Positions 1-63,957 of a stretch of 64,000 nt of DNA are shown here, piece after piece. Within the stretch, counting starts at the first letter, position 1, and each line of letters opens with the position of its first letter. The notes under the pieces are model-generated. The model was not told where the DNA came from and made no database searches. It saw only the letters and a list, made by a program, of their open reading frames with translations. Origin of the DNA: Dehalococcoidia bacterium (GTDB lineage: Bacteria > Chloroflexota > Dehalococcoidia > SM23-28-2); the NCBI GenBank assembly GCA_030615765.1, contig JAUWYP010000003.1, forward strand, positions 62,001-126,000, written 5' to 3'. A program made the translations under genes and the position numbers.

Positions 1-130
1 CGCCGTAGGGCGGCAGGCCCTCCAGGTAGCAGAGGCTGGGGATGTAGATGCCCGCCTTGCGCAGAACTTCCAATAGGGGCGCCCCCTCGGGCGCCTCTAT
101 TGGGTTGTCGTTGGCAGTGATGGTAGCCAC
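1..130 (-). CDS. nuoG: NADH dehydrogenase subunit G-like, N-terminus (partial)
   Basis: Only the first 43 codons are in the window. The reading frame starts at a GTG at 130, preceded by an AAGGAAAAG ribosome site, and runs off the left edge. The N-terminus has the beta-grasp look of a [2Fe-2S] ferredoxin domain and reaches the first cluster cysteine in IPSLCYLEGLPPYG, as in the large iron-sulfur subunit of complex I and related hydrogenases and formate dehydrogenases. It lies nine bases downstream of nuoI in the same direction, so complex I subunit G is the most economical reading. A NADH-linked hydrogenase or formate dehydrogenase subunit with the same N-terminal domain cannot be excluded because the rest is missing. 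Confidence 0.65.
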   Translation of the reverse strand, partial: MATITANDNPIEAPEGAPLLEVLRKAGIYIPSLCYLEGLPPYG

Positions 131-58589: not shown

Positions 58590-59540
58590 CTAGCGGCGGC
58601 CGCGTTGCTTGCCGGCCATCCTCAGGCGCATCTTCTGCCAAAGCTCCGCCAGCTTGGCGCGGCCGCCGCCCAAGAGCCAGCTTTGCCCCCAGAGGTCGTC
58701 GTACTTACCCGACTTCACCCGCGGGTACTCGGACGCTACCTCTGCACCCATGAGGAGGACCACTGAGCTGAGGTACATCCAGAACAGAAGGGCCAGCACC
58801 GCTCCCAGGGAGCCGTAGACCACATCGTAGCGGCCGAAGTTAGCTAGATAGAAGCTGAAGCCATTCTTGATTATCTCGAAGAAGATGGTGGCGACCAGTG
58901 CTCCCGGCCAGACATCGCCGATCTTGATGGGGGCATTGGGCACGAAGCGATAGAGCACGATGAAGGCCCCGAAAGAGAATATCGCCGGCATCAAGTACGG
59001 TATGGCTCGCCAGAAGAAGGCAGTGTTGCTGGACAGAGGGCCGAGAATGTCCGAGCTGGCCTCCTGGGTCGTGCGCAGGAGCGCCGTGGTGCCGATGGAC
59101 AGCAGGAAGAACACCCCTACTCCGGCCACCATGCCCAGGTCCAGTAGCTTCTGCTTGACAAAATGGCGCGAGGTTTCGATATCCCAGGCTATGTTCAGAG
59201 AGGTGCGGATGGCTCCGAACATGGCGCTGGCCGACCAGGCCAGGCCCAGGAGTCCCACGATGCTCAGGGGGATGCTGATGCCGGCGATGGCGCCTATCGC
59301 CTCCCTCACCTCGTCTCGTCCTTCGTCCGAGGTAAGAGGAATGAACTCTAACACGTCCTCTATCAGGTCTTCTTGGAGGCTGCCGCTCTGGAGGAAGATG
59401 CCGAATATCGACACCATGAAGATAAGCAGAGGGAACAGGGAGAAGAGGGCATAGTAAGAAATGGCGGCCGCCATGTGACTGCAGCGGTCGTCGCCAAATT
59501 CCTGGACAGAGCGAACGGTTAGGATGAGCAGCCTTCGCAC
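58590..59540 (-). CDS. YihY/virulence factor BrkB family membrane protein
   Basis: The 316-residue protein has six hydrophobic helices and the family pattern: HMAAAISYYALFSLFPLLIFMVSIFGIFL, GLAWSASAMFGAIRTSLNIAWDI, and WPGALVATIFFEIIKNGFSFYLANFGRYDVVYGSLGAVLALLFWMYLSSVVLLMGAEV. These proteins are inner-membrane proteins once linked to RNase BN; their function is not settled. The GTG start is preceded by a weak site. A TAGTATACT sequence lies near 59561-59569. Confidence 0.88.
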   Translation of the reverse strand: MRRLLILTVRSVQEFGDDRCSHMAAAISYYALFSLFPLLIFMVSIFGIFLQSGSLQEDLIEDVLEFIPLTSDEGRDEVREAIGAIAGISIPLSIVGLLGLAWSASAMFGAIRTSLNIAWDIETSRHFVKQKLLDLGMVAGVGVFFLLSIGTTALLRTTQEASSDILGPLSSNTAFFWRAIPYLMPAIFSFGAFIVLYRFVPNAPIKIGDVWPGALVATIFFEIIKNGFSFYLANFGRYDVVYGSLGAVLALLFWMYLSSVVLLMGAEVASEYPRVKSGKYDDLWGQSWLLGGGRAKLAELWQKMRLRMAGKQRGRR

Positions 59541-59679: not shown

Positions 59680-59766
59680 TTAGGCTGTGACAGCTATCAG
59701 GCCGAGGGCGCTACCCACGAGTCCACCCATCAGGGCAAGCCAGGCACTGCGCCGGAAGCCTGCCAT
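59680..59766 (-). CDS. Possible 28-residue membrane peptide
   Basis: An ATG at 59766 follows a perfect AGGAGG at five bases and opens 28 codons. The product is a single hydrophobic helix with a basic N-terminus (MAGFRRSAWLALMGGLVGS then ALGLIAVTA). It overlaps the 3' end of the zinc-ribbon gene in another frame and would be under the same riboswitch. The strong ribosome site is the main evidence; nothing like it is known to me. Confidence 0.45.
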   Translation of the reverse strand: MAGFRRSAWLALMGGLVGSALGLIAVTA

Positions 59767-59999
59767 ACCATCCTCCTGCCGTCTGAGCCGTTGTCCCGGT
59801 TCAGCGAGAAGCTGCCAGTGAAGGCGGTCTGGCCTTGTGGCCGAAGATGCGTGGGCCCCAGCTCCAGAGGGTCAAACTCGTAGCCACACCCCTCGCAGGC
59901 ATAGAATGGTCCCCACATGTCGGACAGTTCGAATAGAGGACTAGCACAATGGGGGCAAGTTCCCAGGAAGGTCAGCGATGAGTAGCTTATCGACACCAT
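59730..59999 (-). CDS. Small zinc-ribbon protein under a c-di-AMP riboswitch
   Basis: The 89-residue protein has a four-cysteine zinc ribbon: FLGTCPHCASPLFELSDMWGPFYACEGCGYEFDPLELG (CPHC and CEGC). The rest is polar and of low complexity. A GGAGGGG site lies upstream of the ATG. It is the first gene downstream of the c-di-AMP riboswitch and its terminator, so its expression should respond to c-di-AMP, which usually controls cell wall or ion transport genes. The function is unknown; the last 30 residues overlap the possible membrane peptide frame. Confidence 0.65.
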   Translation of the reverse strand: MVSISYSSLTFLGTCPHCASPLFELSDMWGPFYACEGCGYEFDPLELGPTHLRPQGQTAFTGSFSLNRDNGSDGRRMVWQASGAVPGLP

Positions 60000-60056
60000 T
60001 CTTTTCCCCTCCTCCCGGGAGAGTGGTTGTAGGGGAACGGGGCAGACGCGATGGGC

Positions 60057-60085
60057 AAAAACACGCCCGAGACATAGCCTCGGGC
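60057..60085 (-). terminator. Riboswitch expression-platform terminator
   Basis: On the minus strand GCCCGAG (60079-60085) pairs with CTCGGGC (60065-60071) around a seven-base loop, followed by GTGTTTTT (60057-60064). It is a classical intrinsic terminator between the aptamer and the zinc-ribbon gene. Confidence 0.8.
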
Positions 60086-60107
60086 ATACACCCTATCGTG
60101 TAGCGCT

Positions 60108-60275
60108 ATGCCTCTTTCAGTGGCCTACGGGGTTAGCTGACGGGTTCGGGCTGAAAGAGACTACCCTACCTGCCACCGGCAGGATTCACCCCCGGAAATG
60201 GGTCCCCCGTTCCCCGGCTGGGGATTCGGCCCCAGAACCCCTTGCTCTTTACTTTTTGGTAAGTGCGGCGCTTGC
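60108..60275 (-). promoter_or_regulatory. c-di-AMP riboswitch (ydaO/yuaA type)
   Basis: The minus strand holds the hallmark conserved blocks of the ydaO aptamer in order: GGGGTGAATCC (near 60182-60192), GGCAGGTAGGGT, and CCCGAACCCGTCAGCTAACC with GTAGGC (60123-60150). The stem CTCTTTCAG (60151-60160 region) pairs with CTGAAAGAG (60111-60120). The RNA senses cyclic di-AMP and usually shuts off downstream genes when the ligand is present. A promoter lies upstream and a terminator downstream, so the whole switch is intact. Confidence 0.88.
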
Positions 60276-60331
60276 TGCCAGCGGGTTTTCTCTCCGCGAC
60301 CCGCCGCAACAAGGATGCACCAACAGAGAAT

Positions 60332-60360
60332 ATCTTACCCTTATTACGATATTTTGTCAA
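60332..60360 (-). promoter_or_regulatory. Sigma-70-type promoter of the riboswitch transcript
   Basis: On the minus strand TTGACA (60355-60360) is followed after 17 bases by TAAGAT (60332-60337). The start near 60325 leaves room for the complete aptamer. Confidence 0.8.
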
Positions 60361-63339: not shown

Positions 63340-63565
63340 CTATCCGATCTCCAGTACCGCTCTGGTTCCCTTGCGGATGGCGGCCACCTTGAGCATGGTG
63401 CGCATGGCGTTAGCGATGCGCACCCTCCTTGCCTATCACCCTGCCCATATCCGACTCGGCCACCCGCAGGTGATAGACGATGTGGTCTTCCTCCTCCTCC
63501 GTCACCACCACCTCATCCGGGTACTCGACGATGGCCCGGGCCATGTACTCGATAAGGTCCTTCAT
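63340..63565 (-). pseudogene. Second KH-domain gene copy, frameshifted
   Basis: The sequence repeats the coding part of the upstream KH gene with high identity. It starts at ATG 63565, overlapping the upstream copy's stop as ATGA. It reads correctly through the GxxG loop start (SDMGRVIGKEG). There, at about 63418-63424, one extra base shifts the frame to a stop (GAHR*) after about 40 residues. In the corrected frame it would continue to VLEIG and stop at 63340. It lies just upstream of rimM and looks like the original, now decayed, copy. Confidence 0.8.
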
Positions 63566-63957
63566 GGTTTGTCTCCACTCTCGGGCTCAGCCTCGGGCTC
63601 TGGCTCGGGCTCGAGCTCTGGCTCAGGCTCAGCCTCGGGCTCTGGCTCGGGCTCAGGCTCGAGCTCTGGCTCGGGTTCGGCCTCAGGCTCGGGCTCGCGT
63701 TCAGCCCTGGGGCCGGGCCGGGTGACACCCTCTCCGATCTCCAGTACCGCCCTGGTTCCCTTGCGGATGGCGGCCACCTTGAGCAGGGCGCGCATGGCGT
63801 TGGCGATGCGTCCCTGCTTGCCGATCACCTTGCCCATATCCGACTCGGCCACCCGCAGGCGAAAAACGATGTAGTCTTCCTCCTCCTCCTCCGTTACCAC
63901 CACCTCATCCGGGTAGTCGACGATGGCCCGGGCCATGTACTCGATGAGGTCCTTCAT
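63562..63957 (-). CDS. khpA: KH-domain RNA-binding protein with acidic Pro-Glu tail
   Basis: The 131-residue protein has a KhpA-type KH domain in residues 1-75: [21 protein letters not shown], then [22 protein letters not shown] with the GKQG loop that contacts RNA. It then carries about 55 residues of Pro-Glu/Ala-Glu repeats ending in ESGDKP. KhpA proteins usually stop after the KH domain. The same ending (ESGDKP) closes the gene upstream, probably rpsP, suggesting the tail was captured by a tandem duplication. The start overlaps the upstream stop as ATGA. Confidence 0.85.

Follow-up and report, generated by a model that had tools for sequence, protein, structure and literature searches.

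A predicted terminating c-di-AMP riboswitch above a conserved zinc-ribbon and YtxH-like gene pair in Dehalococcoidia

Our results indicate that, in the 64,000-nucleotide stretch of Dehalococcoidia DNA analysed here (the window), a transcription-terminating c-di-AMP OFF riboswitch probably controls a conserved bicistronic unit consisting of a zinc-ribbon gene and the gene for a YtxH-like membrane peptide. The second messenger c-di-AMP is best known for its control of potassium, osmolytes and the cell wall. All elements of leader and unit are located on the minus strand of the window, and the hosts of this tiny two-gene operon are sediment Dehalococcoidia. Literature searches combining c-di-AMP riboswitches with Chloroflexi, ydaO or YtxH with zinc ribbons, and c-di-AMP with Dehalococcoidia returned nothing relevant (subscription journals were outside their scope). 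Measured against this literature, the conserved unit is a new target of c-di-AMP riboswitches, and it is also new that zinc ribbons are the commonest target of the switch in the Dehalococcoidia sampled.

The initial annotation, made from the sequence alone, had described a complete c-di-AMP riboswitch with promoter and intrinsic terminator, and each of these elements was located. The aptamer (60241-60107) matched the ydaO/yuaA covariance model RF00379 over its full length (model positions 1-134 of 134) with 99.6 bits (E 1.9e-22; gathering cut-off 38). In the alignment to RF00379, the conserved core GGGGUGAAU ... CCCGAACCCGUCAGCUAACC was present together with the CUCUUU/AAAGAG complement. Taken as an RNA, the switch is unremarkable and falls into an established class. 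Upstream lies the sigma-70-type promoter TTGACA-17-TAAGAT (60360-60332), which agrees with the consensus at 10 of 12 positions; the scan found two such sites against 0.4 expected from shuffled sequences, and the same kind of scan placed promoter-like sites (10-11/12) above all eight orthologous switches. The leader stretch between promoter and aptamer contains a GC-rich hairpin (GCGGCGGGT...CGCCGC, 60307-60265). In families f3 and f5 the distance from promoter to aptamer is only about 45 nt, too short for such a hairpin. The window's genome, related to the Dehalococcoidia MAGs bin98 and SM23_28_2, carries six RF00379 copies and one gene for a DAC-domain c-di-AMP synthase (PF02457, 144.9 bits).

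An intrinsic terminator (60089-60057; GTATGCCCGAGGC-TAT-GTCTCGGGCGTGT-TTTT) with a stem of 12-13 bp followed by a T run begins 17 nt past the aptamer, within the 107 nt that separate the aptamer from the zinc-ribbon ATG. Two segments could form a competing helix: GAGGCATAGC (60114-60105), which overlaps the 3' end of the aptamer, and GCTATGTCTC (60078-60069), which consists of terminator loop and 3' arm. Their respective motifs CATAGC and GCTATG were invariant in eight loci. At the 3' end of the aptamer, the GAAAGAG strand faces CTCTTTC at 60159-60153, so that GAAAGAGGCATAGC, the 3' strand, has two complements, CTCTTTC within the aptamer and, via GAGGCATAGC, GCTATGTCTC. The terminator stem varies in sequence between families but still pairs, and the GCTATG motif of the loop is unchanged. 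When the platforms were aligned with MAFFT, the GCTATG block of f1 was misplaced, and this alignment was set aside for pair counts. In G001 the T tract of the terminator is poor (GTATTATTG), and this terminator was missed by the search criteria.

Locus by locus (six loci), the antiterminator helix was reached by 17-65 of 300 shuffles and was thus not beyond chance. Because these single-locus shuffles were not significant, we adopted a comparison of matched with swapped partners over 118 RF00379 sites. Aptamer tails paired with their own downstream regions at a mean of -19.07 kcal/mol, compared with -16.65 kcal/mol (sd 0.23) when partners were swapped. Taken together, c-di-AMP-dependent switching between terminator and antiterminator is strongly suggested at this locus. 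With c-di-AMP bound, GAAAGAGGCATAGC would be held in the aptamer, the terminator would form and the genes would be off; at low c-di-AMP, GAGGCATAGC would pair with GCTATGTCTC, no terminator would form and the operon would be read. This anatomy points to an OFF switch, and c-di-AMP-promoted termination above an osmolyte (beta-lysine) gene is a published precedent (PMC9337991).

The first gene of the unit (59999-59730) encodes a protein of 89 aa (CPHC...CEGC) and is preceded by the Shine-Dalgarno sequence GGGAGGAGG (60016-60008), which was assigned from the sequence and the choice of start. Two CxxC knuckles are separated by 16 residues. The four cysteines, D27, W29, G30, Y33 and G39 were invariant among 12 close family members, and the four cysteines also in a comparison of 14 sequences. 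In the predicted model, the zinc-ribbon core (residues 15-38, 59957-59886) is three-stranded, with strands at residues 10-14, 21-27 and 30-35 and a pLDDT of about 75-78 (54.6 overall). Foldseek with this model yielded weak zinc-ribbon matches only, all with E > 0.2 and none significant in PDB; a PDB sequence search returned C2H2 fingers and no credible relative, and none of the curated zinc-ribbon families in Pfam and NCBIfam was above cut-off (best 18.2 vs 34.4). The two knuckles 16 residues apart and the three-stranded model resemble the RPB9/TFIIB/topoisomerase-type zinc ribbons and the small zinc-finger protein ZifS of Thermus, from which the protein differs in belonging to no curated family. 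It is best explained as a small cytoplasmic protein. The very small zinc-binding transcription regulator Brz of Halobacterium (PMC2253796) offers an analogy only: it is archaeal, and the abstract of that report mentions no riboswitch.

We searched for the zinc ribbon and for RF00379 in the same 61 related genomes. The zinc-ribbon frame is kept in relatives, and its orthologue lies directly behind RF00379 in eight genomes, which represent three families within a single Dehalococcoidia order (f1: G000, G001; f3: G005, G008, G019, G021, G023; f5: G007). In all eight linked loci, the zinc ribbon was followed by a hydrophobic, Gly-patterned single-helix ORF starting -40 to +7 nt from the zinc-ribbon stop; the proposed gene pair thus recurs behind the riboswitch. 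Two zinc-ribbon members without riboswitch (G015:C7 and G022:C36) were nevertheless accompanied by the helix ORF, and three riboswitch-free f1 paralogs (G000:C5, G002:C82 and G001:1285745) lacked it. The conservation of RF00379 with the zinc-ribbon/small-helix unit is well supported.

In the window, the second ORF encodes a hydrophobic single-helix peptide of 28 aa (MAGFRRSAWLALMGGLVGSALGLIAVTA, 59766-59680) and overlaps the end of the zinc-ribbon ORF by 37 nt. The AGGAGG noted in the initial annotation is indeed present 5 nt before its ATG (59777-59772), where it codes for RR in the zinc-ribbon frame. The corresponding ORF comprises 43 aa in G001 and 60-66 aa in the riboswitch-linked loci of f3 and f5. 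The 60-aa ORF of G007 is a YtxH protein (PF12732, 43.7 bits; cut-off 37.5), whereas the window's peptide gave no PF12732 match above cut-off; it has the single Gly-patterned membrane helix of YtxH-like proteins and differs from them in consisting of the helix alone. In f3, where the small ORF does not overlap the zinc-ribbon ORF, the first 25 codons (the helix) showed a dN of 0.08-0.10 and a dS of 0.54-0.79 (G019 vs G005, G008 and G021), and the tail drifts (dN 0.57-0.65, dS 0.96-1.00). These values are good evidence that the predicted membrane helix is under purifying selection in f3.

The codon comparison in the window's genus was between two genomes, G000 and G001. Outside the overlap, the peptide had a dN of 0.59 and a dS of 0.63, and no purifying selection was seen in this part, so that selection on the 28-aa peptide may have relaxed, or the peptide may be in decay. 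The claim of a small membrane peptide is thus borne out for the ORF in relatives and for the helix in f3, but the 28-aa form itself shows no codon-level sign of selection beyond the overlap. The switch might serve the zinc ribbon only, and the 28-aa ORF of this genus might be what is left, in decay, of a YtxH-like gene kept intact by the f3 and f5 relatives. We consider this explanation plausible, if rather doubtful. The near-equality of dN and dS, the shortening to 28 aa and the disappearance of the helix from the riboswitch-free paralogs G000:C5 and G002:C82 would all fit a remnant; however, the window retains AGGAGG, start codon, hydrophobic segment and an immediately following terminator, its helix differs in length from that of G001 by an in-frame 9-nt gap, and the hydropathy maximum is the same in both (2.01). 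The Shine-Dalgarno sequence is also kept in G001, as AGGAGGG, and is altered in the two paralogs. We therefore treat the window's 28-aa ORF as a putative shortened YtxH-like partner, a candidate rather than a proven gene.

The unit is closed by a second intrinsic terminator (GAGCGC-loop-GCGCTC-TTTTCG, 59677-59658), which starts 3 nt after the peptide stop; hairpins resembling terminators also follow the small ORF at most of the orthologous loci. A membrane protein assigned to BrkB/YihY is encoded further downstream (58590-59540), on the unit's strand and in an order common to G000 and G001, and could be the real target if it were reached by read-through. Since the terminator at 59677-59658 intervenes, we rejected this highly improbable candidate; moreover, the next gene is convergent in G019, G021 and G023, and in G005 and G007 proteins other than BrkB are encoded after the unit. 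It is also very unlikely that the window's switch is an ON switch or acts on translation rather than termination. At other sites of the class some genes begin only 45-60 nt past the aptamer. A stretch so short can hardly hold both a terminator and a ribosome site, and mechanisms may vary across the class for this reason. In the window, however, a strong terminator follows the aptamer after 17 nt, and the competing helix uses the aptamer's own 3' strand, which is the arrangement of an OFF switch.

Elsewhere in the window, two near-duplicate ORFs (63565-63410 and 63957-63562, together spanning 63410-63957) have the look of KH-type RNA-binding proteins by eye; the ORF at 63957-63562 has a long PE-rich acidic repeat tail.

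We surveyed all 118 RF00379 sites in the 61 genomes by scanning 800 nt downstream of each for small Cys ORFs (180 aa or less, CxxC-8..26-CxxC). Such an ORF was found at 56 of the 118 sites, compared with 1/118 on the opposite strand and 1/105 on the same strand 1500-2300 nt away. Small zinc-ribbon proteins are the most frequent target of the c-di-AMP switch in the sampled Dehalococcoidia. The targets usually listed are genes for cell-wall remodelling and osmotic shock (PMC9337991). While the window's leader resembles other ydaO/yuaA leaders in its full aptamer well above cut-off and its terminator-type platform, it differs from them in controlling a zinc-ribbon/YtxH-like pair; the initial remark that the controlled genes differ from the usual cell wall hydrolases and ion transporters was correct and holds more widely across the survey.

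Three families accounted for 47 of the 56 ORFs; among the other nine, at least one (G026:C178) is no zinc ribbon by appearance. Family (a) (29 sites) has about 68 aa and a near-invariant C-terminal tail, RQRRRQPSHG(K/R)LRL. Family (b), to which the window's zinc ribbon belongs, was found at eight sites and family (c), with the pattern CPxCxGDL...CLQC, at ten. One strong copy each of family (a) was present in roughly 118 of 294 genomes of the class, and the E values of the matches show a gap from 1e-16 to 1e-9; in a sample of the phylum, strong matches came from the class Dehalococcoidia only. Among the 31 genomes of the set G000-G060 that have family (a), 29 carry it behind RF00379, the exceptions being G040 and G044 (f21, f25); the copy in G000 is located at G000:C24:36797-37000 (L066, L189). 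A further small Cys-rich family occurs downstream of RF00379 in G040:C22, G046:C84, G049:C93 and G051:C71, with the pattern C..C ... G..Y...RLC..CA..YE; one member is weakly similar to FtrD-like PF10080 (E 2.2e-4, below cut-off).

Other targets were found as well. In G000, two RF00379 switches occur in series (L064, G000:C13:68000-74600). One precedes the gene for a radical SAM protein that by eye is lysine-2,3-aminomutase-like (Pfam gives only a Radical SAM match just below cut-off), and the second precedes a gene for a class III aminotransferase. G001 and G002 have comparable pairs, which suggests that osmolyte synthesis of the beta-lysine type is under c-di-AMP. The aminomutase-like target is comparable with the osmolyte gene context of the Dehalobacter tandem Na+/c-di-AMP riboswitch (PMC9337991), in which c-di-AMP promotes termination, as predicted for the window; unlike that system, no Na+ aptamer was matched here and another gene is controlled. 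At L065 (G000:C41) and its equivalents in f3, f4 and f5, RF00379 precedes the gene for a DedA/VTT-domain membrane protein, an arrangement that recurs in the order and is followed by genes for a PIN-like and an ispD-like protein (both by eye). In G039:C66 (L153), RF00379 lies above genes for a DUF948-like and a typical YtxH-like protein (both by eye); YtxH proteins may thus occur under the switch outside the window's family too.

Judging only from the adjacency of their genes, the two proteins of the unit may act together at the membrane. Since the switch's other targets in the genome are the aminomutase-like enzyme with the adjacent class III aminotransferase and the DedA/VTT protein, our guess is a membrane-associated role in adaptation to osmotic or envelope stress. 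More speculatively, and with less likelihood than not, the output of c-di-AMP riboswitches in Dehalococcoidia might consist mainly of tiny zinc-ribbon regulators of a second level rather than cell-wall or potassium genes, with the basic tail of family (a), the most widespread of them, binding RNA, the ribosome or RNA polymerase and the window's pair forming a membrane-anchored branch.

For organisms that are difficult to grow in culture, the targets of a riboswitch show what its signal does. Nearly half of the sampled switches lie above small zinc ribbons of at least three families, which yields new candidate genes of the c-di-AMP response: a defined and testable set from a large, little-studied bacterial class. 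The switch also provides a regulatory handle for working out the role of these zinc ribbons, as low c-di-AMP should turn their genes on.
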